This document shows, piece by piece, positions 24,743 through 62,790 of a DNA stretch of 64,000 bases. Position numbers and translations under genes: made by a program. The notes under the pieces were generated by a model, which worked only from the letters and a program-made list of their open reading frames with translations, did not search any database and had not been told where the DNA came from. The DNA comes from Megaleporinus macrocephalus (Eukaryota > Chordata > Actinopteri > Characiformes > Anostomidae), in the NCBI GenBank assembly GCA_021613375.1, contig CM038726.1:8023349-8087348 (forward strand), in the 5' to 3' direction. How positions within the stretch are numbered: position 1 is the first letter of the stretch; the number at the start of each line of letters is the position of its first letter.

Positions 24743-25540
24743 GAACAGAGCAGGTGTGCCAAATTTCTAGAGTTAAAAGAATAAAAATAAATTATATGGG
24801 TTAAACAACTGCAGAAGAACTACATGTTTTCATCCAGACATTTAAATAAAATCTGTATTTGGATAATTATAAATGTGCCTTAGCCATACAAGCTGCACTG
24901 TACAAGTGATCAAGTTTGTATCTTTTGCATAATTAATGATGCAAATTAATACTTGTACATATGTTTTCTATAGACTTACCAGAGATTGCACAGGAAAAAT
25001 GTGCAAAATTGATACAGTTGACAGACTACATATGAATTATATGGAACGAACACTTCTAGAAGAACTTTGCTTTTTACTTACACTTTTGTTTAAGAAAAAC
25101 AAACGTCTTACATTTACAACTGTATTATAGAACTGACCACTGCAGATCAACTCTTTCTTCACTAAATTTGTGTCATTTAAATAACTGACAACACAAAACA
25201 GGACTATTATACATTTTCTAAATACTTAAATTAAAGACTATTATGGTTTTTTTCTAAATGCTTAAAATAAATCGCAGAGGAAATGTGCAAAGCTACGATA
25301 TATATTAAGAAGAATAGACATGACGACTTCACATAGAGGTCATATGCAATATTACCTTCTTGCTAAGCTGATTCCACATTATACAGTACAGTTATATACA
25401 TTATAACTGTACTTTTCTATGGGCACTTCCTTTAAAATGTCCAGAGCTATAATATCCTGCAGCAAATGTACTGTGTACATGTTACAATGGTTGCTGGCAC
25501 TTGACACAGTCATTGTAACTCCACTTGCAGGTCATTAGAG
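24743..25540. other. Centre of the fold-back element, no gene
   Basis: The loop between the arms. A 64-codon open frame at 24936-25130 recurs at 7107 and 11999. All three copies follow the general DNA similarity, with no sign of codon constraint and no homology I can name, so I do not call it a gene. Units 1 and 2 have an extra segment of about 490 bp, including the hairpin at 6451-6563, that is missing here. Confidence 0.5.
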
Positions 25541-27939
25541 AACTATGTAATTGTATTCAGTCAAATAACTGACTAGTAATACAAAACATGAGACTTTTAT
25601 GACATTTGCAATGAATAATTGGTATTACACCACTGTCCTAAACTTTTATGAAGCTCTGGACACATTCAAACTCATATTGTCTAATTGGATTTCATGATAT
25701 AAAAAAAAATCAACTTTAACAATGTTGTAAAACTAAAATCATATAGTACTAAAGAGGAGTTGTTATTTGCCATAACTATTGTTTAAGTTTTGTTTTAGTA
25801 TTACAAAAAAATGTCTTAAAACACAAAGAACTAACTTTAAATAATTTATTCCAGTTTATTCAAACTATTGATTTCGACAGATATTTTCTCCTGCAAGTAT
25901 TTTCTAAATATATGTTGTGAATTTATAGTGTTGTGTTGAATAATTATAATTTTCTTATTTATTGCAATTGTGTTCTGAAATATATTTACTAGCTTTGCAA
26001 TTGTAAAAAACAATGTCAAGATATGGATTTTGGTGTATTTTTACCATTAAAGATAAAAAATGGGGTCAGGATTCTTTTGCTAGCTGTTAATATTTTCTCT
26101 TTTGAAACTGTGTGATTCAACCTTTTATATTTTTATTGCTTTATGCAAGCATTGATTTGGTGTTTTCCTGCAAAAGCGGGCAAACTGGACAAAAGTACTT
26201 TTTTATTTCTGTGCCTGTATAATGTTTTTTTTCATGCTAGCACAAAAATCTAAATGTATATTTGCCTCTATGTTGGTGGATTTCTTTAGCACCATGAAGG
26301 GGTGTAAACAAACAAATACATAAGACTGAGGGGAGCTACACTCCTGAATCCTGCATAACATGAACAATGAGATCCACTCCAGGATCCTGCATAATATGAA
26401 CAGTGAGATCCTTGTTTTAGGCCTGGCATCCTCCTTAAGTGATGTAAATCATTTGCATATCTCTTTCTAACAGAGCTTGTTCACATTACATAGTAATACT
26501 TTGTATCTCATCATATCTTTGCTTCACATGTAGTGCAGTGAAATGTAGCCACTGGCAATAAAGCAAGAAAACCTTTAAAGAGATGTTTTCCTTTGTTTAA
26601 TTTGGACCGTTTCAAACTATTCTTTGATAATACCATGAGGGTGAATGGGTAATGGTAAACCTTCAAACTAGGCCTTTGCGCACCAATCCTGCAATAGAGG
26701 CTGGGTTCAGGGCAGTCTCAGTATTGAGTTTAGAATATTTCAGTTAAGGCCTTGTAAAGCAGCATAGATGAAAGTTTTGAATGTAGATGAGCTTGTGTGT
26801 AGCATGGGAACAATAGAAATTGCATTTCAACACATGCTGGCAAACTAGTGTTTTGACATATTTAGGTTAGATTTAGTGGGTACTGGCATGAGTAAACTTG
26901 ATTTTCCCGCAGTAGACATGAAAAAATAGTATTAAAGTACATTATATTGACATAAAAGCTAAACATGTTAATTCTCAGTAAAAACACCTTCACATAGTGT
27001 GGTGCTATGAACAGTCAATGGTTCTGCTTTGGGGTCTGTTTTGTTTTGTGTAGTTTTGTCTAAGGGCATTGCTGATTAACTGGTGGTACCTATATGATTG
27101 GTGGTACTAATTAAACAAGCTAGTATAGTCAATAAAAACCTCTGCAAATCAAGTCCAGTTTAGATTTTCTTTTCTTTCAAAGGGAAATTGGACAGTACTT
27201 TTGCAATGACAAAATTAGAACTTGGTATAAATCACAATTCATTCAACAATTAATGACAGCATATATTGGACTGTATTAAAATGATGACATTATGTCATTG
27301 TGCTAAAATGAGTATAAATATTATTTTATATAGTAAAATATATTTGCTAACCTATGGTTGTGGATTTGTTTCTTTTTTACCATCACGGGTGTGGAAAGTC
27401 ATTTAATGTTCACTAATGTAATTAGAAGTTCCAAGAGCACTAACTGGCAGGAGTTTCAGTACCAAGAGGTCCAGGTGTGTTGTTATACTAGAACTGACAT
27501 ACAGTGATTACAATAGGTATGTTAAAAGCAGGTGTTTGGACTTCTCTGCTGAGAGTGAAATACAACTACGGTAACACCTGTATGTATCCCACCTTGATGT
27601 GTCCATTTGTGACAGAAAACCAGACCATCATTGAAGATGTAGATGGTGTGAACTAAGTACTTGAGGTGTGTCTCTCTGAGAAACTGAAATTGAGTCTTTA
27701 GAAAAGAATGGAAGTTCAGAAAAGAATGGAATTTATAATAAAAATGATGTTTAACTCACAAACATAAATGTTTTTAAATAATTGAATAATAAGTTGTATG
27801 ATCATTTGTAATAACACCCAGTTTGGCCTCAGCCACCGGAGGGATGCAGAGTGTTCCACCCTACAAATCAGGGTGACCATTTTGGTACAAAGGAAATTTG
27901 TTGAAAAGTCATTTTTTGGCTGAAATGCTATTTTCAATA

Positions 27940-29095
27940 GGACTTGACGATGTAATCCAAAAATGCATAATGTGGAGGCATTTTCCTACTAATTTTAGTG
28001 TCTTGGAATGAAAGCACAAAAAATAAAATAATAAAATCTATGAATATACATGAACATAAGTGTAGAGCATTATGTATTTTGGCAATGCTGGTGAAGCACT
28101 AAAAGTTTTTTCATAAGAAAAGGCATGCTCTAACTAATGTAAATGTCTTGGAATGTAAAATGAAGGAATTTAAGAACTTTCCAAATATGGATGTGAAGAA
28201 AAGACTAAGGCCTATATTATTTTCACAAATTTGGTGAAGTAACAAAATTTATTTGAAATAAAAATGTGCAATGTAATTCAGAAAATATATCATGTGGAGA
28301 AATTTTCCAAGTAATTTGAGTGTATTAGAACTTTTTTACAACTGCACCAAACATATGTGAATGTAAGCCTTATGTATTTTGTCAAATTTGATTAAACAAT
28401 AAAAGTTCAATTTCACTAGGAATTTATGATATAATCCATAAAATACACCACAAGGAGGCATTTTAAATAATTTGTTTTAATAGAAAAATATAAACAAATA
28501 AAGAATGATCTAAAAATGCTGACTTACATATTTTGATAATTTTCTTACAACAATGAAACTACATATTCCTCAACACATTGGTGATAAAGTACGTATTATA
28601 CATAAAATAGAGGTATATTTCAGCTAATTTAAGTGTCTTGCAATGAACATTAAAGTTATTTGAGAAACATTCACAAATTCATGCAGAGCAATGACTGTAG
28701 CCTTATATTTTTTTGCAATTTTCTATTTACCGTATAATGCATACATTTATGTGTCTTACATTTCTTTCTTAAAGAAATTTTAAAAACTGTACCAAAATGC
28801 AGATGAGGGTAAGACTATAGACTTTGTATTTGGACAATTATAATGAAACAATAAATGTTAATTTTACCAAAGTTTTTTGAGCAACAAGGAAACTGTAGGA
28901 ATAAGAAGAGGAATTTGTGACATAATACATAAAACACATCATGTGGAGGCATTTTCCAACTAATTATCATGTCTTGGAATGAAAATAAGGCAACTGAAGA
29001 ACCATCTAACCACATGTGAAGAATTCAGCCTTTCACATTATCAAAGCTAAATTTTGACAATACATATTGGTGAAACAATAAAACGTGTATACTAT
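27940..29095. repeat. Degenerate tandem repeat, unit 3 copy
   Basis: Counterpart of 14985-16095. It retains a segment at 28274-28330 (atatatcatgtggagaaatt...) that completes one more repeat period. Confidence 0.5.
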
Positions 29096-37076: not shown

Positions 37077-37215
37077 TAAAAGTTAAATTTGTATAATGTA
37101 AAGAAGAAGTCATATGTCAACACGATCCAGAAACACCGCCAACATCTCTCTCCATAAATCTCCATTTTCACCAGCATCCCTCTCTCCTCTCCTGTAGACT
37201 GCTTCACTGGTATGA

Positions 37216-37271
37216 CTAGAAGGAATTACTTCTCCTGAGCGGTGCTGCAGGTTCTGGAGTATCTCCACTGA
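37216..37271 (-). CDS. Terminal exon of the split gene
   Basis: Acceptor ttttatag before 37271. Entered in phase 1 it reads (F)SGDTPEPAAPLRRSNSF and then TAG at 37218-37216. An alternative frame runs about 110 nt longer to a TGA (SVEILQNLQHRSGEV...), but it does not fit the phase of the preceding exon. Confidence 0.55.
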
Positions 37272-42587: not shown

Positions 42588-42648
42588 CGTTCACCAGAGC
42601 AGATTCCTTCATTTTCATTTTCTTCTCTTCTGTCCATTTTCTGTCTCT
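42588..42648 (-). CDS. 61-nt exon of the split gene
   Basis: Acceptor ttttattcag and donor gtgaga. Entered in phase 0 it reads RDRKWTEEKKMKMKESALVN plus one base, leaving in phase 1. Highly charged, probably helical. It only fits the chain together with the 17-nt exon upstream, which converts phase 1 to 0. Confidence 0.55.
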
Positions 42649-42826: not shown

Positions 42827-42843
42827 CTGAGAAACGTAGACAC
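42827..42843 (-). CDS. 17-nt microexon
   Basis: gtgtctacgtttctcag lies between acceptor ctgttatag and donor gtgagc. Entered in phase 1 it gives (G)VYVSQ and leaves in phase 0. Together with the 61-nt exon it makes 78 nt (26 codons). Confidence 0.5.
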
Positions 42844-46486: not shown

Positions 46487-46502
46487 GTCTCAGTACACGC
46501 GC
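46487..46502 (-). CDS. 16-nt microexon, copy alpha
   Basis: gcgcgtgtactgagac lies between acceptor ctcttcacag and donor gtgagtataa. Phase 0 in, 1 out: ARVLR. Confidence 0.6.
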
Positions 46503-46794
46503 CTGTGAAGAGAATAATATGAAGTGAATGTTTCATGTATGGAATCATAAGTGAATTATTAGATGTAAATATCAGTAAAGCTGGAGATTTAACAACACAG
46601 TGAATGTAGAAAACACTGCACTGTTTGTAGAGTTTCTTTTCTTTATGAGGATCTGATACAGACTGATTTCAGATTTTTATTTCAGTAATTTTAATATTAT
46701 TTACTGTAATTTTATCTGTCTCCTCTCTGTCTGTCTCTGTTTGTTTCTGTGTCTGTCTGTCTCTCTGTCTGTCTGTTTGTATAATATACCATAT

Positions 46795-47454
46795 TGTTAC
46801 CCCCTGTCTTGTCCTTCCTGTCTATGTCCTAGTTTACATTCCCGTCATTCACATGTGCTTCTGTTAATGTTTTGTAATGTTCCAGTTCTCCCAGACAGAG
46901 GGGATTGATCCATTCACAGAGTTTTTATTTACACACTATACAACAATGTATCTTTCACACACACTGGAACACTGTTACACCTACAATCACGGAGACAGAG
47001 GGGACAGAGAGGGGACACTTTATACAAACACGAGACTCACTACACAAGGGACATCTGGAGAACATTCCAACATGGCCGAGGTGGAGGACGGAGACACGGA
47101 GCACATGGGGAAACATAAATAAAGACCACGTGGCACAGAGTGAAGGACAGACGAGACACAATCCTTACAGATTAGATGTGCTCCTTGTCTCCGCCCCTCA
47201 CCTGTTCAGTGTTCCCAGGTGTTCCTTGTTTCCTGCGTTATGTATTCCCTCCGTTTGCTCTTTGTGTTTGTGGTTCATTTTGTCTCTGTCCTGTTACCCA
47301 GTTCCCATGTCCTTTCTTCTAGCCTGCGTCCTGATCATCATGCCGGTTTGTCTTTGTTTTCTAGAATTCTTGTTTCTCTTGTTTTACTTTCACATTGAAC
47401 CATAATAAAAAGATTTCTGTATCCGCCTTTCCTGTGTCCTCTGTCACCGTCACA
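46795..47454 (+). mobile_element. Probable solo LTR-like block, copy alpha
   Basis: Starts with tgttac, has a pyrimidine-rich 3' half with cattgaaccataataaaaag (AATAAA) about 50 bp before the end, and ends near caccgtcaca. This is the look of a fish gypsy/ERV LTR. The near-identical copy is 58153-58815. No target-site duplication is seen. The two overlapping open frames (81 and 166 codons) are not credible proteins. Confidence 0.4.
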
Positions 47455-47914
47455 ACTACTGAACAATGTTTTTGTAATTGTGTTTTCTGCTATTAGAGGA
47501 CAATTTAGTTACATTTCTATTTAAACATGAACAAAAATCACATCCAATCAGAAACACTTATTATTAATAATATTTTATTGTTTCTACTTTCGTCATCTGT
47601 CTGTCTGTCTCTGTCTGTCTGTCTATATGTCATTTTGCTTTTCTGTCTCTTTCTCCATGTCTGTCATTTTGTGTGTCTGTCTATTTGTCTGTCTCTCTCT
47701 GTGTCTGTCTCTGTCTGTATTGTCCTGCAGGCCTGTGTTATAATTATTGATAATATGTTTATGAATGTGTTTCTGTTATTTGTTGTGTTATTAAACTTAA
47801 TTCTGTGATCAGAGACTTTGTTCATCACATGATCATTAAATAAAACTGTTATTTTAAAATGTGGTGTATGTGAGTATCAGCTGTCAGTAGGAGGAGGAAA
47901 TATCATTTACTTAC

Positions 47915-47925
47915 CCAGAAATCAT
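47915..47925 (-). CDS. 11-nt microexon, copy alpha
   Basis: atgatttctgg lies between acceptor ttgtttaaacag and donor gtaagtaaat. Phase 1 in, 0 out: (N)DFW. With the 16-nt exon it makes nine codons. Confidence 0.6.
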
Positions 47926-47990
47926 CTGTTTAAACAACAGAAAGAGACAATGTTAGATAAAAACATCCACAACATCATTTACAATTAGAA

Positions 47991-48769
47991 AAGTTCAGAA
48001 TCTCTTTATCTCCTTATCAGAAATCTCTGTCGTTTTTCATCTTTCACTACTTACAGAAATAACTGGCAACAAGTTACATATCAAGTTACTTCATTAGTAA
48101 ACTAGTAATTATGTAGTAACAGCTTGTAAATAAAATATTAAACATCAGTTAGAGAGAAGATCATAAACGAATATGAATGAAACATTAATAAACAATACAT
48201 TTGAGAAGAATAATTTGTGTGGTGATATCTACTGCATGAATAATGAAAATGAGCTGAAGTAAATGATCAAATTAAATATTACAAGATAGATATACACAGT
48301 TCAATAGGTTTTAAAATAAAGCATGCACAGCCTGAAACTCTGAGACATACGGCCTGTGAACTGCGCAGTAAACCCCAAGGTAAGTTGGCCAAGGCCAAAG
48401 GGACCACCAGGCACAGGTCTGCATTGCCTGGCATGGTTTAGCACAAGCTTTTTAATGAGATAATGAGTCTGAAAAACTGTGAACTTCACTTCGTAATCTG
48501 TCAGTATTAGTGTGTGTGTGTTTGATGTTACAAACTTTGTTTTATCTAAGGTGAACGTGTTTCTGCTAATGCCACCTTGGAAAAATACCAGCAAATTTCA
48601 TTATTTTATTAATTTCTCATATTTTCTCTAAAATACTTCTGGCTATAAATACTGACTCTTAGCCTGATCGCTAAAGTGCAAAATTAAATGAGTAAACTTT
48701 ACATACAGACCATATCTTAACTGTATTCAAGGTAAGGGTATCTGGAGTCAGGATAATTTGCAGTCTTAC
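47991..48769. other. Intron with duplicated segment 48340-48480
   Basis: 48340-48480 repeats 45770-45910. No other feature is recognised. Confidence 0.4.
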
Positions 48770-48865
48770 TTGAGTGGACACTGGGAGCCAGTTCCATTTC
48801 ACACACTGCAGCCTTCCAAGATTCATGATCAGGAAAATCTACAGTCATGCTATCACTGCTAATAG
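48770..48865 (-). CDS. SH3_15-like module A, second exon
   Basis: Acceptor ctttgcag and donor gtaaga, phase 1-1. Reads (A)ISSDSMTVDFPDHESWKAAV then CEMELAPSVHS. VTVDFP..SW...E.EL is the C-terminal half of SH3_15 repeats. Confidence 0.75.
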
Positions 48866-49202
48866 CTGCAAAGGGAGAATAAAATACATTATTTACTACA
48901 ATCAATTAGTTTAAACTGTGGTCCCACAGTAAAAAACTGTTTAAAAACCAGAAATCATCTTAGATATTTACAAGGGTTTTGTTATGATGTAATAAGCTAC
49001 ATTTTATAGCATCGGCATGAAGAAGACAACAGGGAAAACAGTGAGCTTTCAATGTTCTTTTTTTCAGTGTGAACAGCTCAGCACAGTTTCACACAAATAA
49101 CATGTACATGCACTAACAGTCTTTTAAAAGTCTTTCTTAATCTGAGTCTGGTGCTATTCTGTCCAGCAACAGTATTGTATCAATGTCTGTAAGTGTTCTT
49201 GC

Positions 49203-49304
49203 CTGTAACCACACCAACGCTGCTGTGAGAGGCATGTCCCCACTTATATTTTGGAGAGCTAATGGAGGCTTTCACTCTGACCCGGTCTCCAATCCTGAAG
49301 TTTC
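49203..49304 (-). CDS. SH3_15-like module A, first exon
   Basis: Acceptor tgttatag; donor is cag-gcaaga, a GC-type donor with otherwise perfect consensus. Phase 1-1. Reads NFRIGDRVRVKASISSPKYK then WGHASHSSVGVVT. The GDRVRVK...KY.WG...SVGVV pattern is the N-terminal half of the Mind bomb-type SH3 repeat. Confidence 0.8.
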
Positions 49305-50130
49305 CTATAACACAGAGAGAAGAAATACAGATTTCATTAAGCAAACGCATATCTCAGTATGTCAAATGTGTTAGATAATCATGATACTTCATTTGTTATT
49401 TTTCACTCACACTCTATTGGTTAAAAAAAGGGACTTAAAGGGTGAACTTTATTTTCTTTTAAAAAAGGAGCTGATTGAAGAGGGTTGAAGAGGGCGCTGA
49501 AGCTAGTAAATAAGAACAAATATGTGAATAGCGACTAAATTGCATTTATTGCTTCTCTTGGTGCCACTTATCTAAACTACACTAAATGATGATCTGAGAA
49601 CAACTTCAGCTTCTGTTTGATACACATCTCCTTGATTTTCCTCGCGTTCTTTACAATTATGTCATAGGTTGTTACATATCATGTTGTATGTAATTTATTC
49701 TTTTTCCTCAGCTGTATGTGAAACATCTCAAATATGTTTTATTTAATTTCAAATTACATGTAAAATCACTGATAAAACATGCACATGATTTCTTTTTATC
49801 CAGTTATCAAAGGATGAGCCACTGGGAGTGGTGACATATCATCTCAAACATCTCCAATTTGGAAGGAGAACTCAGATTACATGTGACAGGTACTTCTCCA
49901 CCAACACCTAAATCCCATAAGTTAGAGAACATCAAGAGTCGGATTTTAAAATAAAACCAATAAGATGTTACCATTGCCCTGTTTGATGTGGTCATAAGGA
50001 AGATAAGCTTTTTGTTGTCATGGCTCGTCTTTCATCATGTGTTAATTAATCTAACTTCCTGAATTTGAGTGATTTAATAAAACCACCTGCTTTGACTTTG
50101 TTTAAGGTTAAGGTTACACACACTCACTGA
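49305..50130. other. Intron, no gene
   Basis: AT-rich, nothing recognised. Confidence 0.4.
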
Positions 50131-50330
50131 ACACTTCATTAGATACACCTCTTTGTTTCTGCACTCATTGTTCATTTAATCAGCTCCACTTATTAAACAG
50201 GAGCACTTCATAGACGGACCGTATAGTGCATATCTACATACTTTGTCAGCTCTCCTTTACCCTCTTCTTCAATGGTCACGACCCTCACAAGACCACCACA
50301 GAGCAGGTATTATTTGGGTGGTGGGTCTAC
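50130..50330 (-). repeat. Fragment of a dispersed fish repeat (inverted)
   Basis: The complement reads gacccaccacccaaataatacc...gacaaagtatgtag...tgttcagtgag, a very common fish dispersed repeat of uncertain class, possibly MITE-like. The overlapping part of the same repeat lies in forward orientation at 54163-54240. Confidence 0.55.
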
Positions 50331-50884
50331 TAGTCCAGAGGCACTAATAGGCAGACTGCGGCCCGGGTCTGGACCCAGACGTTGTCCAATGCAGACCCAA
50401 ACCGAAAAACTACTGAGAACGATTTCCATTAGACAGTGTTTATTTTAAGCAGCGGATCTTTTCTTGTCTTGGCGGTACACATGCTTTACGGCGCAGTAAA
50501 CTCACAGACCAATTGCGTGCATTGTAAGATCACCAAAAGCACTCCTCAGCCAATCAGATATGTACTGATTCAGGAGTGCGGTGTGCACACAGGTGAGGTA
50601 CAAAGCGAGAAGCACCATTCGGAGAATAAATAGAGTTGGAGAAAGAGTAACGTGCTCTAAAAGAAGAAAAACCTACTTTTTAACCAGGAATGGAGCAACA
50701 TATACGTTTATTCTTCCCACAGGCAGCTCCAAACCAACAAGATGTAAAATTTAGTTAACGAGAGGACCCATGCTTTATTGGCTGTTTCTATAAATAAACA
50801 CTTTAAGATACACTTTTTTCAAAAGCATTCTGTTTTTCGTAATGTAGCCCTTGTTTTACATTTATTTGAAGTTTTATAAATACT
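50331..50884. other. Possible non-autonomous hAT piece
   Basis: ggcagactgcggcccgggtc near 50353 looks like the end of a fish hAT element. MEQHIRLFFPQAAPN from 50690 may be the start of its lost transposase. The evidence is thin. Confidence 0.25.
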
Positions 50885-51386
50885 TGTCACGCCACCCTCC
50901 GATTCTCAACACAAACCTGATTTACTCAGTACACAGCATGGACTTCAACTCCCAGAATCCCTCCGGAGATCACGGGACCACCTTACTCCACCAATCATCT
51001 ATGCTCCGGGTCTCTGGAGTTCTGATTTCCCTCAGCTGTCACGCATTAGACAACCCTATTTAACCCTACCTTTCGAACATTTCAGTGCGAAGTATTGTCA
51101 TTGTGTGAGCGTTTTCTGATCTGATTGCCAAATTGTTTTAACCTGTTTTCCTCTAGTGGTTTTGTCTTTTTGGATTGCCCCTGCATCGGACTTTGATTTC
51201 TGGTTTTCTACCTTTTTTTGCTTGTTTTCTGACCACGCTCTCTGCCTAGCCCTTTTTGTCCCTTTTTTGTCTTGTCTGGTTTTGACCCATGCCTGTTTTG
51301 ACTACCATTTTTGCCTGTCTGTTTATTAAAAAACCTCTCGCATTTATCCCTGCATTTACCGGTTTAATTAAGTTGGTATCTTGACA
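50885..51386 (+). mobile_element. 5' LTR of a Ty3/gypsy chromodomain element
   Basis: tgtcacgccacc ... ttgaca, 502 bp, with tttattaaaaaacc near its end. It stands directly before a gag start. A related solo LTR is at 40960-41422. The matching 3' LTR is not found after 53940. Confidence 0.75.
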
Positions 51387-51409
51387 TAATACTTGTGCAG
51401 GCAGTTGGT

Positions 51410-52410
51410 ATGGAAACCTTGCAGAAGGTCATTGTGGATCAAGGTGTTCTGCTAGAACAACATCATCAGCTGCTCACTAGTTTCAACTAAACTGTAAGTT
51501 TACTTGCCCAAAAACACGGGGAACATCAATTGCAATTGAATCTGGTGGCTGATAACCTTAAAAACCTCACCAATCAGTTACAATCTGGAGCTATGGTGGG
51601 GACTCCGGGAAACACATCCGGGTATGACGGTTCCCCAGAATGTCATGGGTTTCTCCTTCAATGTTCCGTATTCTTTGACAATTCCGCCCATACCAGTGTT
51701 CCTCCAAGATTTACTGGTTTACTGGAAGGCTTACTGGTAAGGCTCTCGAATGGGCAACTGCAGTGTGTTCAAACTACCGTACAGCTATGTATAAATCATT
51801 TATATCAGAATTTAAGACTGTTTTTAATCATCCTTTTGCTGGAAGAACATGTGGTGAATTACTGGCATCTCTTAAGCAGGGCAATCGGTCTGTTTCAGAA
51901 TATGCATTAGAACTTTGGATTCTCGCTGCAGGAAGCGCATGGAACGAGCCTGCCCTGTTGGTGACATTTCGGAAAGGACTCAACCAGGATATCCTCACCG
52001 AATTAGCGTGTAGAGATGACAAACTTGAACTTGATAAACTTATTTCCCAAACCATTTGTTTAGATCATCTCCTCCACCATAAAAAACAGATATGTGCCTG
52101 TTTCCAAGAAAGTGTTCTATTTCCCAGAAAGTAAAACCCTACGATGGAACCTATGCAATGTGATTTCACTCGTTTAACTCCAACTGAAAGACAACGCCGG
52201 AGAATTCTCTAATTGTGTATGTACTGTGGGAGTCCAGAGCACCACATACACAACTGCCCTATCAAACCTTCCCTAGGAGGTCCCAGTTCGTCATGCAGTG
52301 GGTTTCCCCACGCGCAGCATGGATACCCTGGCTGTCCAAATGAGCAACCTGCATCAACCCCTGGAAAGCGCGCTGAGATTTCTCCACAAGCTAATGTGGG
52401 GTTGATATGA
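51410..52410 (+). pseudogene. gypsy gag relic with zinc knuckle
   Basis: Begins METLQKVIVDQGVLLEQHHQ at 51410, stops after 27 codons, and continues in other frames. The capsid-like part includes SEFKTVFNHPFAGRTCGELL and FRKGLNQDILTELA (51790-52010). The nucleocapsid knuckle CMYCGSPEHHIHNC (C-x2-C-x4-H-x4-C) is at 52216-52257. Gag would build the particle that packages the element RNA. Several frameshifts and stops make it dead. Confidence 0.75.
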
Positions 52411-52449
52411 AGATCCTTTTTGCTAGCCATAACTGTATATTCCTGTTGT

Positions 52450-53020
52450 TGTTTCAGCATTAATCGACTCAGGTGCAGAGGGGAACTTCATAACAAAGGA
52501 GAAGGCTGACGCACTACGACTCACCCAGGAACCGTTCTCAACCCAACTTCAGGTCACCGCGTTGGATGGAAAGCCTATGAACATCCTGCCTATCTCCCAC
52601 ATCACCAAGGCCGTCAGTGTCGCTACTAGCGCCCTCCACGTAGAGAAACTGTTCTTTTTGTTTTAGAACATTCTAAATGTTCTGTCATCCTAGGCCTTCC
52701 ATGGTCACAAAAACATAACCCCATCATTTCATGGTCTCAACACAAGATAACTGAATGGTCCCCGTTTTGTTTAGACAATTGTCTGAAATATCCCTCTATC
52801 TCTTTATTTGTTCCACATCTATTGAAAGTCCTATATCCGCTACCTTCACTATTCCCTCCAAATATGCAGACCTCAGCAAGGTTTTTAGTAGAACTAATGC
52901 CACTGTTCTGCTCCCTCATTGACCATATGACTGTGCCATCGACCTCATAGAGGGTGCCCCCTTGTCTATCCTTTAACTCGCAAAGAAGAAAAAACCATGG
53001 ATGATAACATTGAAGAAGCA
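52450..53020 (+). pseudogene. gypsy protease relic, RT mostly deleted
   Basis: ALIDSGAEGNFITKEKAD near 52462 holds the aspartic-protease DSGA motif. The following GLPWSQKHNPIISW is the usual link to reverse transcriptase. The pol region then collapses: wording like ARFLVELMPLFCSLIDHMTV stands where reverse transcriptase should start, and the core with YxDD is missing. Confidence 0.65.
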
Positions 53021-53169
53021 CATGTTTAAGGGTTAATCCAATCCTCTAATTCTCCCATTACATCTGGCTTCTTTTCTGATCTATTCCCCTGACTGGCCGG
53101 AGAGTTCTCAAAAGGCTTCTCAAAAAAGCAAATTTCACACATGTCCTTCCTCGGATACATTATAGATTC

Positions 53170-53940
53170 TAATGGGGTTTGGAATTCCTGAGGACATTCT
53201 TTCAGATCGGGGTTCGCAGTTTACTTCACACGTCTGGTCGGCTTTCTTCGAACACATAGGGGTCAATGTAAGCCTCACATCCCGCTATCACCCCCAATCC
53301 AACTGACAATGTGAGCGAGCTAATCAAGAACTCGGCAAATTCCTCAGACTTTACTGTCATGAAAACCCTACTGACTGATCTCAATCGCCCAGAATTTATT
53401 AATGCACTCTTTCACACATTTAACTCCTTTCCAGTGTGTGCTAGGTTGTCAACCCCCGTTGGCGCCATGGACTACCATCGCCTCCGAAGTTCCAGTGGTG
53501 GACGACTGGATGCGCCGGAGTGAGGAGGTTATGGGAGAACACACACCGTCAGATCCAGTCCTTACTCTCCAAATACAAGGAGAATTCTGACCGTAGGAGA
53601 GGTGAAGCTTCCTCCTATCAACGAGGAGATCGAGTCTGGCTTTCCACCAAGGACTTCAGGTTTGATAAGCCGTTCGGCAGTTATTGGACTCTAGGAGGCA
53701 CGGCGGAGTACAACAATACTTAGTGGACTGGGAGGGTTACGGTTCCGAAGAGCATTGCTGGATACAAGCCAAGGAAGTCCTGGATCCTGGTCTGGTGGTA
53801 GACTTTTACAGTCGGCACCTTACTAAACCTGCTCCTCGTCCCTGCGGAAGACCCTGGAAATCTTCAGCATCCCCCAGTTCCACGTCACTACGAAGCCTCG
53901 CAGATCCAGCTCCGCGGCTTCTCCGACCCGACTTCTGACG
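53170..53940 (+). pseudogene. gypsy integrase end and chromodomain relic
   Basis: [16 protein letters not shown] (about 53180) and YHPQSN (about 53285) are integrase core pieces, with the second catalytic Asp in SDRG. GDRVWLSTKDF (about 53630) is the C-terminal part. [16 protein letters not shown] (about 53709) is a chromodomain followed by a proline/arginine tail. Frames change several times. The chromodomain guides insertion in related elements. Confidence 0.75.
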
Positions 53941-54049
53941 TTGCCGGTGGCCGGGTGGCAGATATTCTACTTAAATACCCCTGTATTAGTCCTTCATCAG
54001 TGGTCACAGGGGCTACCCACAGAACGTTGTTGGCTGGATAGTTTTGTCT

Positions 54050-54240
54050 GGTGGACTATTCCCAGTGTTCAAAAACTCCAGCAGCACTGATGTGTCTGAT
54101 CCACTCGTACCAGCACAACACACATTAACACAACACCATGTCAGTGTCACTGCAATGTTAAAGATGACCCACCACCCTAATAGTACCTGCTCTGTGGGGG
54201 TCCTAACCATTGACAAACCGGATGAAAGGGGATTAAAGAG
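54050..54240 (+). repeat. Fragment of a dispersed fish repeat (forward)
   Basis: cccagtgttcaaaaactcc, agcagcactgatgtgtctg and gacccaccaccctaatag are hallmark pieces of a very common dispersed repeat of fish genomes. Its other fragment is inverted at 50130-50330. Confidence 0.6.
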
Positions 54241-54373
54241 GAACACTACATTAACTACAGTCTATAATTGCAATACTACAAAGAGCTCTAGCTGATGAAA
54301 GGGGCAGTGAGTGTAAATACAAGAAAATGTTAACAATAAAGTGCTTTGTGAGTGTGTATGTAACGTTAGTTTT

Positions 54374-54418
54374 AAACAGAAGCTTTCACTTTGACTGGGT
54401 CTCCAACCCTGAAGTTTC
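54374..54418 (-). pseudogene. Broken third SH3_15 first exon
   Basis: After acceptor catattttag it reads NFRVGDPVKVKASV and then a stop, because the exon is cut off at 54373. The rest of this module is missing; repeat and gypsy sequences lie where it should continue. Confidence 0.65.
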
Positions 54419-54419
54419 C

Positions 54420-55131
54420 TAAAATATGTTTGGAAGAAGTACTGATTTTAGTAAATAATCTGAAAGCACAATATTTCAGAAGCATTGGGGATAAACCTTA
54501 ATGACAGATTTCAAATAAAACAAATCACTTTGCATTGTTTTCCATATAGTTGCTGAGGACATTGTGCTTTAGGATGTGGACATTAAACGTTTTTTCACCT
54601 CATTAATTTATAAAATACATTTAAAATAATATATAAAAGCTCTTTAGACAATAGAACAGTCAAATAGCAATGGCAGCAGCAATCAGCAGACAAGTGTTTC
54701 TGTAAAATTCATTTTGGTGAACTACTAATGCTTCAGTTGAAATAAACAATTCCTAAACATCATTTCAGCATTTTCTTCTCTGGTGTTTAAAGTTCTGAAT
54801 AGTTCAGAGATTGAAGAAATACGTTCACAGTACCTGAGGCAGCGTTCATACGGAGTGTGTTTAAAACTGATGCAGGTATTAAGCAATTAATTATAATCTA
54901 ACTTACTTTTCAGCATAAACAGCAAGTTATATGAATGAACAGGAGGGAGACAAATAAACTCAGAACCTTGAGTTACAGCAACATAGACTGAGTAAGCCGA
55001 GTGTAGTACGGTCAGCTGCTGGTCTAATCTCATTTCAGTTTGACCTGAAGTTTCTATATATATATATATATATATTTTACTCAAGCCCAGGTAATTCATT
55101 TACATAGTGTCATAGTAATACTCAGTGTTAC
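54420..55131. other. Intron, TA microsatellite
   Basis: (TA)n at about 55055-55074. No exon recognised. Confidence 0.4.
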
Positions 55132-55227
55132 CTGGGTCAAAACTGGGAGCCAGTTCTATTTCTGAAGCTGCAGCCTTCCAAGATTTACGCTCAGGAAAAT
55201 CGACAGTCACTCTTTCACCATTAACAG
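55132..55227 (-). CDS. SH3_15-like module B, second exon
   Basis: Acceptor tctgcag and donor gtaaca, phase 1-1. Reads (A)VNGERVTVDFPERKSWKAAA then SEIELAPSFDP. Same length and phase as the module A counterpart. Confidence 0.75.
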
Positions 55228-55371
55228 CTGCAGAGGGAACATAGACATTGGTTACTTTACAGTGTGGAGAAATATTTATCATGATTGATATGGCTACTTA
55301 ATGAGGATTTGTGAGTCACAGGGGTAAATGACTGTATAAATAATTATGTAAATGAAAGTAAATGTTCTTGC

Positions 55372-55467
55372 CTGTAACCACGCCAACACTTCTGTAATCT
55401 GCCCAGAGGTATTTAAGAGAAGTAACAGAAGCTTTCACCCTGACCTCGTCTCCAATCCTGAAGCTCC
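55372..55467 (-). CDS. SH3_15-like module B, first exon
   Basis: Acceptor tgttatag; again a GC donor (cag-gcaaga). Phase 1-1. Reads (G)SFRIGDEVRVKASVTSLKYL then WADYRSVGVVT. Two residues shorter than in module A (96 against 102 nt). Confidence 0.8.
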
Positions 55468-57479
55468 CTATAACAAGAAGAGAACAAATACAGATTTTTT
55501 AATCAGTTTGTGAAATTTCTGCCCTGCTAGATCGGCCTGGGTCAGCTGTGAGTGCTATTATTGTGAAATGGAGCAGCAACTGAAAACCTGGCCCACTGAA
55601 CACTTCCAACATCAGTGCCTGACCTCACAAATGCTCTTTTGACTGAATGGACAAATTCAGTTTTATTGTCATGTCACTAAATGTGAGATCAGTGTAGGTT
55701 TGAGCCACAATATGAGCTGCTCTACACTTTCGTAAACAGCTGATTCTTGAATGGACGTACAAAAAGCACGTATAGTGTTTCTCTTGTCAAAAGTCATTTT
55801 TTTGTTTGGTTTAAAACAAGCAATCCAGAAATAACAAAATATGTAATTAAAAATGTAAATTTAAAATGATTTAATTTAATATAGTAATTGGATTAGTAAG
55901 TACTATTTTTCAGGTTTATATTTATTGCTATAGTGAAAATTAAACAGTTGAGGATTTCACTTGGCTTTAACCAATGCTAACGTTACCTTGTGAAAATGTC
56001 TTACCTTATATAAACATATCTTACTGTGCATAATATAAATATAATATTTACAGGTATAGCTCTACATAAAACCACTGGCAGGATATTGACTTCTTACATA
56101 ACCCATTTCACTCGAAAACCTTTAAACCTTCAAAACACAACATATAGTCACTACCTATACCAATGATTGTTCACTTGACCAACATCCTCAGCCTTTTGAA
56201 AACTTTAATTGTACTTTTCAATATAGAACTTTTAATATAAATATAAATTTTAGTTTATGCATCTGTAATTAATTTGTTCATATCCAGTTAATTCACTGGG
56301 TTTGATTTAATCCTATAATAACACATACCGCACCAGAACAAAGTATATTGTAATACAGAATTCCTTCATCTTTATAATTACTCAAATTGCCACTAATCTT
56401 GAATCTCTCCTGACATTTACAATAATTTGAATGTATATAAACCTCAGGATTTCTGTTTTTTTCTGAATTGGAGCAGACCTCTCACAGTACAAACCCCTAA
56501 CACTGCATCAGTTCTGACTCAGTTTGACAGGTTTAGATATATTAAATGAACACTGTTTTGACTTCATAGTGACATAGGCTGGTGGGTTTCAAAGCTTCAT
56601 TTGTAAAGACCCCTGAGCAAACAGAAGGGTAGATACTCGTTTGTCTTACATGAACCCCAGAGACCTCGCCACTGCTTTCAGTTACAATGCAGTTTGACAA
56701 TGATATAATAATAATTATGCTTTGATATTATATGATATTATATTTTATCAAACATAATATATGATATTATATCTCAGAACATATGATGTGAAAATAATGA
56801 TAATTCATGTACATTTACCCACGAACCAATTCTATTATTTAATCTCGTCTTGGTCTCAGATACTCCTAGTCTTGGTCTTGACTTGGACGGTGTGTAACAG
56901 TGTATTAATTTTGTATCAGTATCAGTGTGTAGATGTGTGTTTGTGTGTGTGTAAATGTGGTAAGAGTGTTATTAATTTTGTGGCACTATAAGAGTGTAGA
57001 TCAGATGTGTGTATGTGGGAATATAAAGATTAACAGATTAATCAGTGTAACAGTCAGGAGTCATGACCTTCAGGAGAGAGTCTTAATACTCAAACACAAC
57101 CAACACTTCAACTCGTCATATCTCTCAGAAATAAGAGGATCTCATGAGATTAAAACTACAACTGGATTTAAATAATAAAATCCTAATAATGGAGAGAATA
57201 AGTTAAATATCTTACACAAAAGATAGAAAAGTAAGATTTTAATGAGTTTGTCTGAGTCGAGTCACCTTCCTCTATCATTAACATCCTGCACAGACTGTAC
57301 TGGAGACTCGTTTATACCTCAGTAAGACATTCTGAACATCATAGATCTCCTAGTAGACATACACACTAGATCTGCTCTTCTGTATCTTCTGAGAAGTGAA
57401 CCTGATCATCTCCTCAATAAGTCTGACTTTCTGCTGCACTTCTCTGACTGTCTGTAACCTGTTTGTTCTGTATTTACTT
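55468..57479. other. Intron, no convincing exon
   Basis: AT-rich. 57240-57470 reads on the minus strand as TVREVQQKVRLIEEMIRFTS and so on, which looks protein-like, but it has an in-frame stop and no good splice sites. Not called. Confidence 0.4.
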
Positions 57480-57782
57480 TCCAGCTGAACAATCACTAAT
57501 ATTTTATTATTAGATACATTATTTCTTCATTAATCAGTAAATATAAAATATAAATCAGTAAATTTAAATATAAATGCTGATATAAACGTGACTCTGCTGT
57601 TATACATGTTGTACATGTAAGAAAATAATATTAATAATAATAATCAGAGTAAAAAACTGTGAACTTCACTTTATAATCTATCAGTATCAGTGTGTAGATC
57701 ATATATGAGTGTGTGTGTGCGTGTGTGTGTGAGTGAGTGTGTATAGGTGTGAAGATCAGATTTGTGACTGATTTATACTCAC

Positions 57783-57798
57783 CACTCAGTCGTTGCTC
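57783..57798 (-). CDS. 16-nt microexon, copy beta
   Basis: gagcaacgactgagtg lies between acceptor ctcttcacag and donor gtgagtataa. Phase 0 in, 1 out: EQRLS, joining directly to SH3_15 module B. Confidence 0.65.
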
Positions 57799-58152
57799 CT
57801 GTGAAGAGAATAATATGAAGTGAATGTTTCAAGTATGGAATCATAAGTGAATTATTAGATGTAAATATCAGTAAAGCTGGAGATTTAACAACACAGTGAA
57901 TGTAGAAAACACTGCACTGTTTGTAGAGTTTCTTTTCTTTATGAGGATCTGATACAGACTGAACATCATATTTCAGATTTTTATTTCAGTCATTTTAATA
58001 TTATTCACTGTAACTTTTTTATGTCCTCTCTGTCCGTCTCTGTGTCCTTTGTATGTCTCTCTGTCTGTCTCTGTTTGTCTCTGTTTGTTTCTGTGTCTGT
58101 CTGTCTCTGTGTCTTTCTGTCTGTCTGTCTCTGTTTGTATAATATACCATAT

Positions 58153-58815
58153 TGTTACACTCTGTCTTGTCCTTCCTGTCTATGTTCTTGTTTACATTCC
58201 CGTCATTCACATGTGCTTCTGTTAATGTTTTGTAATGTTCCAGTACTCCCAGACAGAGGGGATTGATCCATTAACAGAGTTTTTATTTACACACTATACA
58301 ACAATGTATCTTTCACACACACTGGAACACTGTTACACCTACAATCACGGAGACAGAGGGGACAGAGAGGGGACACTTTATACAAACACGAGACTCACTA
58401 CACAAGGGACATCTGGAGAACATTCCAACATGGCCGAGGTGGAGGGCGGAGACACTGAGCACATGGGGAAACATAAATTAAGACCACGTGATACAGAGTA
58501 AAGGACAGACGAGACACAATCCCTACAGATTAGATCATGTGCTCCTTGTCTCCGCCCCTCACCTGTTCAGTGTTCCCAGGTGTTCCTTGTTTCCTGCGTT
58601 ATGTATTCCCTCCGTTTGCTCTTTGTGTTTGTGGTTCATTTTGTCTCTGTCCTGTTACCCAGTTCCCATGTCCTTTCTTCTAGCCTGTGTCCTGATCATC
58701 ATGCCGGTTTGTCTTTGTTTTCTAGAATTCTTGTTTCTCTTGTTTTACTTTCACATTGAACCATAATAAAAAGATTTCTGTATCCGCCTTTCCTGTGTCC
58801 TCTGTCACCATCACA
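58153..58815 (+). mobile_element. Probable solo LTR-like block, copy beta
   Basis: Near-identical to 46795-47454 and duplicated with the cassette rather than inserted independently, since the flanks match too. Confidence 0.4.
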
Positions 58816-59294
58816 ACTACTGAACAATGTTTTTGTAATTGTGTTTTGTGCTATTAGAGGACAATTTAGTTACATTTCTATTTAAACATGAACAAAAATC
58901 ACATCCAATCAGAAACACTTATCAATAATATTTTATTGTTTCTACTTTCGTCATCTGTCTGTCTGTCAGTGTCCTCTCTTTCTGTCTGTCTGTCTCTCTC
59001 TCTGTCTGTCTGTCTATATGTCATTTTGCCTTTCTGTCTCTCTTTCTGTCTCTTTCTCTATGTCTGTCATTTTGTGTGTCTGTCTATTTGTCTGTCTCTC
59101 TCTCTGTCTGTCTCTGTCTGTATTGTCCTGCAGGCCTGTGTTATAATTATTGATAATATGTTTATGAATGTGTGTCTTCATTCTGTGATCAGAGACTTTG
59201 TTCATCACATGATCATTAAATAAAACTGTTATTTTAAAATGTGGTGTATGTGAGTATCAGCTGTCAGTAGGAGGAGGAAATATCATTTACTTAC

Positions 59295-59305
59295 CCAGAA
59301 ATCAT
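59295..59305 (-). CDS. 11-nt microexon, copy beta
   Basis: atgatttctgg, identical to copy alpha including both splice sites. Phase 1 in, 0 out: (H)DFW after the 16-nt exon of copy gamma. Confidence 0.65.
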
Positions 59306-59628
59306 CTGTTTAAACAACAGAAAGAGACAATGTTAGATAAAAACATCCACAACATCATTTACAATTAGAAAAGTTCAGAATCTCTTTATCTCCTTATCAG
59401 AAATCTCCTTTTCTCATCTGTACTGTCCTTTTTCATCCTTCACTACTGAACTGTCACTCAATGCTTTCAGTACAGCTTCATGAAGATGTTCAGCTAAACA
59501 GTTAAAGTCTAAACCTACAGCAGAAACTCAACACTTACAGAAATAACTGATAACAATTTACAGTAAAGTTCATTAATAAACTAGTAATTATGCAGAAACA
59601 GTTTATTAATTAATATATTAAACATTAA

Positions 59629-59675
<47 letters not shown>

Positions 59676-59756
59676 GTGTGTGTGTGAATGAGGTAACAGT
59701 GTTATTCATGGTGTGTATAGGTGTGAAGATCAGATTTGTGACTGATTTATACTCAC

Positions 59757-59772
59757 GTCCCAGTAGATGCTC
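59757..59772 (-). CDS. 16-nt microexon, copy gamma
   Basis: gagcatctactgggac lies between acceptor ctctttacag and donor gtgagtataa. Phase 0 in, 1 out: EHLLG. Confidence 0.6.
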
Positions 59773-59999
59773 CTGTAAAGAGAATAATATGAAGTGAATG
59801 TTTCATGTATGGAATCATAAGTGAATTATTAGATGTAAATATCAGTAAAGCTGGAGATTTAACAACACAGTGAATGTAGAAAACACTGCACTGTTTGTAG
59901 AGTTTCTTTTCTTTATGAGGATCTGATACAGACTGAACTTCATATTTCAGATTTTTATTTCAGTAATTTTAATATTTACTGTAATTTTATGTCTCCTCT

Positions 60000-60592
60000 C
60001 TGTCTGTCTCTGTTTGTCTCTGTTTGTTTCTGTGTCTGTCTGTCTGTCTTTCTGTTTGTCTGATTCTCTCTCTGTCTGTCTCTTTCTCTGTCTGTCTGAT
60101 TCTCTCTATCTGTCTCTGTCTGTCTGTCTGATTCTCTCTCTGTCTGTCTGTCTCTGTCTCGCTGTCTGTCTCTCTCTCTGTCTGATTCTCTCCTTGTCTG
60201 TCTGTCTCTCTCTCTGTCTGATTCTCTCCTTGTCTGTCTGTCTTTGTCTTTCTGCCTGTCTCTTTCTCTGTCTGTCTGATTCTCTCTCTGTCTGTCTGAT
60301 TCTCTCTCTGTCTGTCTGTCTGTCTCTGTCTCGCTGTCTGTCTCTCTCTCTGTCTGATTCTCTCCTTGTCTGTCTGTCTCTCTCTCTGTCTGATTCTCTC
60401 CTTGTCTGTCTGTCTTTGTCTTTCTGCCTGTCTCTTTCTCTGTCTGTCTGATTCTCTCTGTCTGTCTGATTCTCTCTCTGTCTGTCTGATTCTCTCTCTG
60501 TCTGTCTGATTCTCTCTCTATCTGTCTCTGTCTGATTCTCTCTCTATCTGTCTCTGTCTGTCTGTCTGATTCTCTGTCTGTCTGTCTCTGTC

Positions 60593-60633
<41 letters not shown>

Positions 60634-61075
60634 GTCTGTCTGTCTGTCTGTCTGTGTCTTTCTGTCTGTCTGATTCTCTCTCTGTCTGTCTCTTGCTCTG
60701 TCTGTCTGATTCTCTCTGTCTGTTTGTCTTTCTGTCTGTCTGATTCTCTCTGTCTGTCTCTTTCTCTGTCTGTCTGATTCTCTCTCTATCTGTCTCTGTC
60801 TGTCTGTCTGATTCTCTCTCTGTCTGTCTGTCTCTGTCTCGCTGTCTGTCTCTCTCTCTGTCTGATTCTCTCCTTGTCTGTCTGTCTCTCTCTCTGTCTG
60901 ATTCTCTCCTTGTCTGTCTGTCTTTGTCTTTCTGCCTGTCTCTGTCTGTCTGATTCTCTCTGTCTGTCTGTCTCTGTTTCTCTGTCTGTCTGTCTGTCTC
61001 TGTCTCGTCGTCTGTCTGTCTCTCTCTGTCTGTCTGATTCTCTCTCTCTCTCTGTCTGGCTATGTCGGTCTGTCT
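60000..61075. repeat. (TCTG)n microsatellite, 1.1 kb
   Basis: Imperfect tctg repeats mixed with tctc and gattctctc, with higher-order units. One is a block of about 180 bp around ctgtctcgctgtctgtc, seen near 60150, 60320 and 60830. It starts from the shorter TCTG run present in the other two cassettes. (GT)n at 59632-59663 is a separate run. Confidence 0.9.
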
Positions 61076-61524
61076 GTCTTTGATGACAGAACAGATTAAA
61101 TGACCTCACATACATCACCAGAGAGACACCATTACATTACCAGTACAAACCACTAGAAGTTCTTCTCTGTGCTGACTGAACTTCACTCTCTCACACAGGA
61201 GACGAGTAACTTAACCATTCAGCCAAACAACCAATCACAAAACACAAACAGCACAACTCACACTCTACTCCATCCACTAATCTACCAGCCTGTTCCTCCA
61301 AGAAACTCAGAGAGAAGATTAAAGTGAGCAGATTTCTGAGTATAAACTGGAGACAGTGTGAGATTTTCACTCACTGCTTTTTAGAGTTACAGTCATTCAG
61401 TAAAAGAGTCTCAGATATAACTGAGTCTATCAGTTTCAGCAGTGATGAGTCAGAAATACATTCACCAGAAACCTTTCAGTGTTTAAATGAACCCATCATT
61501 TAGAATCATATGACATACATTATC
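61076..61524. other. Intronic sequence between two satellites
   Basis: No feature recognised. Confidence 0.4.
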
Positions 61525-62525
61525 TGCTAGAACTCAGCTAGAACTCAGCTAGAACTCATCTAGAACTCATCTAGAACTCTGCTAGAGCCCGGGTAGAACT
61601 CAGGTAAAACACTGCTAGAACGTGACTAGAACTCGGCTAGAACTCAGTGAGAACACGGCCAGAACATTACTAGAACTCGGGTACAACTCTGCTAGAACTG
61701 TGCTAGAACTTATTTGGAACACAGCTCGAACATTGCCAGGACTCGGCTAGGACACTGCTAGAACTTGGGTAGAACTCTGGTAGAACTGTGCTAGAGCTCA
61801 GCTAGAACTCTGCTAAAACTCAGCTAGAAGTCTGTTAAAACTCTGCTAGAACTCGAAGTCAGCTAGAACTTGGCTAGGACTTCTAGAATTCTGCTAGAAC
61901 TCTGCTAGAACTCGGTTAGAACTGTATAAAAAGTCTGCTAGAACTCGGTTAGAACTGTATAAAAAGTCTGCTAGAACTCAGGCAGAACTCTGCCAGGACT
62001 CGGCTAGAACTCGGCTAGAACTCGGCTAGAACTCGGCTAGAACTCGGCTAGAACTTTGTTAAAACTCTGCTAGAACTCTCTTAGAACTCTGCTAGAACTC
62101 TCTTAGAACTCTGCTAGAACTTGGTTAGATCTCGGCTAGGACTTTGTTAAAACTCTGCTAGAACTGATAAACTCAGCTAGAACTCGGCAAAGACTGCTAG
62201 AACTAGGCTAGAATTCGGTTCGAACTCAGCTAGAACACTACTAGAACTCTGCATGTACTCTGCTAGAACACTACTAGAACTCAGTTAGGACACTGCCAGA
62301 ACACTTCTAGAACTCTGCATGTACTCTGCTAGAACACTACTAGAACTCAGTTAGGACTCTGCTAGAACACTTCTAGAACTCGGCTAGAACTCGGCTAGGA
62401 CTGCTAGAAATCTGAACACTGAACAGCTAGAACACTGACAGAACTCTACAAAGATGGCTAAGATTGGGCTAAGTCTCGGCTAGAATGTGTCTAGAACTTA
62501 GCTAGAACTGCTAGAACTCTGCCTA
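61525..62525. repeat. 12-bp minisatellite (ctagaactcgg)n, 1 kb
   Basis: About 80 units of the type gctagaactcgg/tctg with many variants. A few larger blocks are repeated, for example agaactgtataaaaagtctg twice near 61918-61970, and a gcatgtactctgctagaaca block near 62250 and 62312. All frames are open only by chance. Confidence 0.9.
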
Positions 62526-62779
62526 ACAGAGTCCAGACTGCTTGTATGTGTTGTGTGTGTTTCTCATCAGTGAACTTCACTGTCTCTACATTTCTGCAGT
62601 GCAGTGGGATTATGTACAGGTGCATTGTGGGAAGGAAGGAGGGAGATGGAGATCAATAACCTTCATTCTGTGATCAGAGACTTTGTTCATCACATGATCA
62701 TTAAATAAAACTGTTATTTTAAAATGTGGTGTATGTGAGTATCAGCTGTCAGTAGGAGGAGGAAATATTATTTACTTAC

Positions 62780-62790
62780 CGAATAATCAC
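62780..62790 (-). CDS. 11-nt microexon, copy gamma
   Basis: gtgattattcg lies between acceptor ttgtttaaacag and donor gtaagtaaat. Phase 1 in, 0 out: GDYS. It differs from the other two copies, but the length and splice sites are kept. First exon visible in the window. Confidence 0.55.

Follow-up and report, generated by a model that had tools for sequence, protein, structure and literature searches.

Tandem microexons with variable cores and near-invariant flanks in a putative immunoglobulin V-set and GIMAP gene family of Megaleporinus macrocephalus

Microexons are generally short and conserved, and often neuronal. In schistosomes, micro-exon genes contain many tiny in-frame exons and give variable products. 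Butyrophilins are marked by a signal peptide, a transmembrane part and usually a B30.2 domain. Here we analyze a stretch of 64,000 nucleotides (nt) from the fish Megaleporinus macrocephalus (C25:8023349-8087348, hereafter the window), which contains three serial pairs of an 11-nt and a 16-nt microexon, designated A and B. These pairs probably are coding microexons of a large C25 gene family uniting an immunoglobulin (Ig) V-set domain with an AIG1 GTPase domain (IgV-GIMAP), in which a linker made of A, B and a third microexon, E, would have been diversified by selection while splice sites and flanks stayed fixed. The GIMAP/AIG1 family is large in fish, with more than 100 loci in zebrafish according to PMC7053062.

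Microexon pairs in the window and along C25

A sequence-only reading had proposed six microexon candidates, and all six were found at their proposed sites, with strong AG acceptors and GTAAGT or GTGAGT donors. The further claim that each pair adds nine codons through phases 1-0-1 also held, and the six joined microexons stay open. The elements are listed below by window position.

62780..62790, minus strand: microexon A, copy 1, 11 nt, phase 1 to 0
59757..59772, minus strand: microexon B, copy 1, 16 nt, phase 0 to 1
59295..59305, minus strand: microexon A, copy 2, 11 nt
57783..57798, minus strand: microexon B, copy 2, 16 nt
47915..47925, minus strand: microexon A, copy 3, 11 nt, same core as A copy 2
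46487..46502, minus strand: microexon B, copy 3, 16 nt
42827..42843, minus strand: microexon E, 17 nt, phase 1 to 0, joining B to W; new relative to the sequence-only reading
42588..42648, minus strand: exon W (RDRKWTEEKKMKMKESALVN), coiled-coil start of the IgV-GIMAP gene, entered in phase 0 and left in phase 1
37115..37269, minus strand: fragment with the start of a D exon (SGDTPEPAAPLRRSNS) fused directly to mid-AIG1, probably the decayed GIMAP end of the window copy

Joining the window A-B pairs with E and W gives a single open frame, xDYSEHLLGHDFWEQRLSDDFWARVLRRVYVSQRDRKWTEEKKMKMKESALVN. In an alignment of the three window copies, the A block (about 200 base pairs, bp) and the B block (about 250 bp) are nearly identical, and most differences fall between AG and GT. 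Because the copies are recent duplicates, conserved splice sites are weak evidence on their own, and the variable core is the informative part. One of the three 11-nt copies deviates in its core, as previously noted; beyond that claim, all three 16-nt cores differ.

The arrays extend far beyond the window. DNA searches of the species' own genome (1.28 Gb) placed all 40 scored A blocks (of 66 candidates) and all 40 scored B blocks (of 74) on C25, where they span 8.07-9.46 Mb. A search for an exact A pattern, with fixed splice-site letters and a free core of 2-32 nt, returned 59 copies genome-wide, every one of them in the 7.06-9.87 Mb part of C25, whereas the reversed pattern, used as control, gave none; since exact splice-site letters were required, copies with altered sites are uncounted. 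Core lengths were 11 nt (36 copies), 8 nt (21) and 14 nt (2), all 59 being of the form 3n+2, and the set comprised 40 distinct cores and 30 distinct peptides (first residue excluded). B cores measured 16 nt in 22 of 24 copies and 28 nt in the other two, all 3n+1; the B copy number is based on the 40 of 74 scored blocks, and E on four copies. With lengths of 8, 11 or 14 nt (A), 16 or 28 nt (B) and 17 nt (E), AG and GT borders and a maintained frame, all three have the properties of microexons of up to about 30 nt. The serial amplification of microexon pairs, overlooked by ordinary gene models, is borne out.

One 40-kb stretch (C25:8583001-8623000) contains eight A copies in the order A-B-A-B ahead of a GIMAP at 8625863; its units are mostly 3-4 kb long, with minisatellite DNA in the introns. 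Among matches to loose core patterns, seven (four of 5 nt and one each of 11, 37 and 59 nt) were judged to be chance, the A profile giving no support, and another, in one C22 locus, was likewise dropped as chance. Beside the IgV-GIMAP block, AIG1 genes of shorter length are again densely clustered (C25:6303004-7384438), and nine A microexons are found within this stretch, at 7.06-7.35 Mb. Remnants resembling Tc1 transposase were seen by eye among the microexon copies (window 63.1-64.0 kb, and loci L042 and L043).

Comparison of cores with flanks showed where the variation resides. For A, mismatches to the consensus numbered 6 in 3400 flank bases (60 before and 40 after the core, 34 copies) versus 67 in the 286 bases that make up the 26 cores of 11 nt; a similarity search, biased towards clean flanks, supplied most of these copies, and 20 of the 34 lay in stretches fetched whole. 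For B, the counts were 21 in 1900 and 61 in 288, based on 19 of 24 copies, the other five being excluded for shifted or diverged flanks. Cores are therefore more than 100-fold (A) and about 20-fold (B) more divergent than flanks, and about 100 bp on either side of A is nearly unchanged across 30 loci.

The variation follows the reading frame. When A and B were read jointly in phase 1-0-1, third codon positions were invariant in 6 of 9 cases, versus 0 of 18 at first and second positions (permutation P 0.003). Third positions were also the least variable among the 59 A copies, in both the 8-nt (P 0.018) and the 11-nt (P 0.012) class. This is as expected of translated exons under diversifying selection. 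Stop codons were absent in the used frame from all 40 distinct A cores (of the other two frames, one had stops in 18 of the 40 and one in none), and from the 14 distinct B cores in the frame continuing A (7 and 1 in the others).

The putative V-set and GIMAP parent gene

The exons surrounding the arrays point to the following gene plan. A short first exon (MATASN) would be followed by an Ig V-set exon ending in phase 1, then by A (8, 11 or 14 nt, phase 1 to 0) and B (16 or 28 nt, phase 0 to 1), with extra A-B pairs in some genes. E (17 nt, phase 1 to 0) would lead into W, further coiled-coil exons, short Ser/Arg-type exons and the AIG1 GTPase exon. The number of A-B pairs varies among paralogues. 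A, B and E would jointly encode the linker from the V domain to the coiled coil; most likely, their cores give a variable, length-adjustable connection between a V domain with no visible leader and a coiled-coil GTPase. Selection for amino-acid change would diversify the letters of this linker, and the fixed splice sites and flanking introns would keep the tiny exons spliceable.

The third microexon accounts for the frame. B exits in phase 1 and W (SEREWTEEER...) is entered in phase 0, and E, with a length of 3n+2, closes the frame. It was found by aligning three regions upstream of W, as a 17-nt core between TCTGTTATAG and a GTAAGC, GTGAGA or GTGAGC donor. B sits between the last A and W in every gene that was followed to W (the compact gene described below, two places at L046-L049, and the window).

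A compact gene at C25:9039677-9062792 shows the plan, with V, A, B, A, B, E, W, coil exons, a D exon and AIG1. It reads without a stop from the first exon through W (MATASN...CSVRVDP-SGW-RRLLE-RRV-ELLLS-HVIISQ-RERKWKEEERMKMEESTLLT); the coil and AIG1 exons were located separately from this open reading. Its P-loop is GRTGCGKS, and a 129-residue piece scored 120 bits against the AIG1 model of Pfam (cut-off 27). Its AIG1 exon ends after 242 residues, and the other 14 AIG1 copies of C25 8.18-9.49 Mb run longer. L048 (C25:9267126-9267770), a GIMAP copy scoring 141 bits, has its P-loop region split over two frames, so some family members are not intact.

The V-set exon before A scored 53.3 bits (cut-off 26), and its nearest solved chains by sequence are pIgR, butyrophilins and MOG. 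Of the 30 A loci scanned, 6 have such an exon a short way upstream of A, and at L025 it is preceded by the short MATASN exon, in which no leader peptide was visible by reading; no signal or transmembrane predictor was run. Querying the genome with this V-set gave 88 matches (150 scored of 155 candidates), and the strongest 27 were all on C25. Downstream of these 27 on the same strand, an A starts within about 2.3 kb in 12 and within 7 kb in 16.

The AIG1 model matched 150 places in the genome, that is, all those scored of 332 candidates, 15 of them on C25 at 8.18-9.49 Mb. In a control, the model also matched in 12 of 14 prokaryotes, above the cut-off in seven. It is thus unspecific at low scores, yet all 150 scored matches here reach at least 138 bits. 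With these 150 best-scored candidates, 34 of the 48 A copies at 8.0-9.6 Mb have an AIG1 match on the same strand within 110 kb downstream.

Related proteins show the same domain combination. Of the 235 candidates in the protein search, 55 were AIG1 proteins with E <= 1, mainly from characins (Colossoma, Prochilodus, Acnodon, Metynnis, Serrasalmus and Pygocentrus) and some from catfish, and several characin relatives unite V-set, coil and AIG1. The linker from V to W could be excised from 8 of 81 homologous protein models and proved highly variable: two were A-like and joined to W (SSW-SNREW, SPW-INREW), five had E-like ends and one was nearly absent. RV-SSW-SNREW is an A-like example and LVFYVQ-QRDREW an E-like one.

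Variation of the V-set, compared across six exons of the own genome and eight homologues, is concentrated in four places: ahead of strand B, around the E-F turn, at the 3' end of the V-set and within the linker. It includes in-frame length changes. An AlphaFold model of homologue P0034 places the strands accordingly; it is of low confidence (mean predicted local distance difference test score 55.8, V-set blocks below 50) and served only for strand order. Judging from the general topology of Ig domains, the variable V-set patches would share one end of the domain, adjoining the linker. The ends of the RRRNS-type exons (KEIDPPD, KEELNPA, LQGSPPH ...) are hypervariable at exon borders, as is the V-set 3' end; hypervariable RRR and D exon borders were seen in homologues P0028-P0076 and in L048.

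Competing readings of the arrays

From the sequences we infer the splicing itself, selection as the cause of the core diversity, and a role for the linker in which it would give a cytosolic immune GTPase a variable surface for contacts. Several results weigh against this account. The window copy has no intact AIG1, only a 38-residue piece fused to the D exon start, and among the matches listed there is no V-set between the window array and 8.24 Mb, a region with stretches of N. For these two reasons the gene copy of the window itself is probably decayed, while other copies look intact; a by-eye scan for coding exons in the 16 kb that precede the window array gave nothing convincing. No AIG1 match on the same strand was found within 110 kb downstream of 14 of the 48 A copies among the best 150 of 332 candidates: six of these are in the window array, five at 8.86-8.91 Mb and three at 9.248-9.260 Mb, where a W exon is present beside a stretch of N. 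A B-like peptide was seen in 0 of the 8 homologue linkers, and V-A-W and V-E-W are in frame without B, so B could be a rarely used exon. The protein search with the array peptides gave 654 candidates (137-437 residues), none at E <= 0.1. The Nei-Gojobori ratio of nonsynonymous to synonymous differences (pN/pS) reaches only 1.08 in A and 1.99 in B; selection for change is therefore favoured by the codon-position pattern and not proven by this ratio. The identity of the flanks may also owe something to gene conversion.

A second account holds that the exons are real but that selection for diversity has had little part in them, their cores varying through local mutation or conversion, either because gene conversion homogenised the flanks or because mutation was targeted to the cores. 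The pN/pS near 1 for A and the almost invariant flanks of about 100 bp per side in 30 loci fit such a process, which should, however, neither spare third codon positions nor respect the frame; moreover, particular protein positions are also where the other short variable patches lie, both those of the V-set exon and those that end the RRRNS-type exons. We regard this account as unlikely.

Linkers differ between paralogues. Within one gene, alternative splicing could add diversity, since every alternation of A or E with B preserves the frame: A and E exit in phase 0 and V and B in phase 1, so any ordered path V-(A or E)-B-(A or E)-...-W is in frame. The computed number of in-frame linker paths for n A-B pairs is 3, 8, 21 ... 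2584 for n = 1 to 8. That alternative microexon splicing forms a combinatorial system in a vertebrate cytosolic immune GTPase, giving each fish a repertoire of linkers, each assembled from hypervariable germline cores, beside a variable V-domain face, seems to us improbable. The idea that the cores correspond to D segments of V(D)J recombination was dropped after the borders of the cores had been inspected by eye for the heptamers of recombination signals; no search for them was made.

A third account, in which the arrays do not code and are tandem duplicates or repeats of a satellite kind whose splice-site look is inherited from one dead exon, is very unlikely. The tandem units are indeed rich in minisatellite and microsatellite DNA, and the GIMAP end of the window copy is broken. 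Neutral decay, however, predicts equal divergence of cores and flanks, contrary to the excess measured in both A and B cores, and leaves the in-frame lengths of all 59 A copies and the constancy of third positions unexplained.

Hardly tenable, finally, is the earlier assignment of the pairs to an SH3_15-repeat gene, where they would lengthen the spacer between SH3 repeats: four intact-looking SH3_15 exons of the window enter and leave in phase 1, and B-to-SH3 or SH3-to-A joins would be in frame, but the distribution largely contradicts it, the nine-residue insert occurs in 0 of 12 homologues inspected by eye (26 were found by SH3_15 query), and a further first-half copy in the window (54419-54357) is interrupted by stops. 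With the window SH3_15 exons as query, the genome gave 109 matches, 104 in C6:36.46-36.63 Mb, one on C3 and four on C25, all four within the window; all scored A and B blocks are on C25, and the assignment was rejected on these grounds. The look for SH3_15 exons beside C25 microexons covered the window with a further 40 kb, the stretches 8.583-8.623 Mb and 9.244-9.284 Mb, and 30 A loci, and among these the two stand together only at the window's own site. The window exons of this type are best read as a stray insertion outside the microexon gene:

55372..55467, minus strand: stray SH3_15 first-half exon, C6-type
55132..55227, minus strand: stray SH3_15 second-half exon
49203..49304, minus strand: stray SH3_15 first-half exon
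48770..48865, minus strand: stray SH3_15 second-half exon

Their apparent source is a dense array of SH3_15 half-domain exons at C6:36466631-36626815, which seems to have relatives among the characin 'KEG-like' proteins, in which a hydrophobic stretch, a coil and SH3_15 repeats are present. Matches to PF18346 on C22 and C9 were considered as the home of the window's SH3_15 kind and discarded, as they did not match the window exons, whose kind is on C6.

The 96-nt exons that had been named as neighbours of the pairs fared no better, being either SH3_15 half-domain exons (55467-55372, 55227-55132, 48865-48770) or two 96-nt exon-like pieces. These two pieces, C1 and C2 (45041-44946 and 39732-39637, minus strand), have about 60% protein identity (ILDPHWSSDFPQSTKGYKTWLACMLSLTKDT) and good splice sites, and gave no significant Pfam match; D-F-P stands at codons matching those of SH3_15 second halves, a likeness without Pfam support.

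Elsewhere in the window, a 3.5-kb segmental duplication is 99% identical between 11808-15322 and 24746-28276, and the first 33 kb contain several more duplicate pairs (94-99% identical). An open frame of 845 amino acids at 17931-20468, plus strand, resembles by eye a reverse transcriptase of long interspersed nuclear elements.

Comparison with described systems

The proposed C25 genes share features with four described systems. As in Dscam-type arrays, a single gene would contain tandem homologous, diversified exons; here, the exons are only 8-28 nt long, their serial use keeps the frame, and alternative use is only a candidate. As in schistosome micro-exon genes, proteins would be assembled from tiny in-frame exons; here, the gene would be a vertebrate immune GTPase, the exons are asymmetrical (1-0-1), and hypervariable germline cores lie in fixed flanks.

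With butyrophilin/BTN3 genes, the C25 gene shares a V-set, whose nearest chains by sequence are those of pIgR, BTN and MOG; it has no visible leader, however, and its model leads to AIG1 and not to B30.2. Variable cores are not described for butyrophilins in the accessible parts of PMC6790196 and PMC5829056.

With fish GIMAP/AIG1 GTPases, the C25 genes share the AIG1 domain, the P-loop, the coiled coil and membership of a large tandem family. They differ in adding a leaderless-looking Ig V-set and a linker of hypervariable microexons, neither of which appears in the accessible parts of PMC8201404 and PMC7053062. The whole arrangement of V-set, microexon linker and GIMAP is likewise not described in the portions available of these two articles or of PMC6790196 and PMC5829056. 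The open-licence literature searched held nothing on GIMAP together with microexons, which is no proof of absence from print.

If expressed, these exons would offer a route to immune-protein diversity that gene finders and short-read aligners easily miss. The variable Ig-to-GIMAP link that exons of 8-28 nt appear to form is a possible unrecognised source of protein diversity. Compared with the usual picture of microexons, the arrays present a reversal, in which the letters of the exon are variable and its surroundings fixed, in what is probably a large fish immune gene family.

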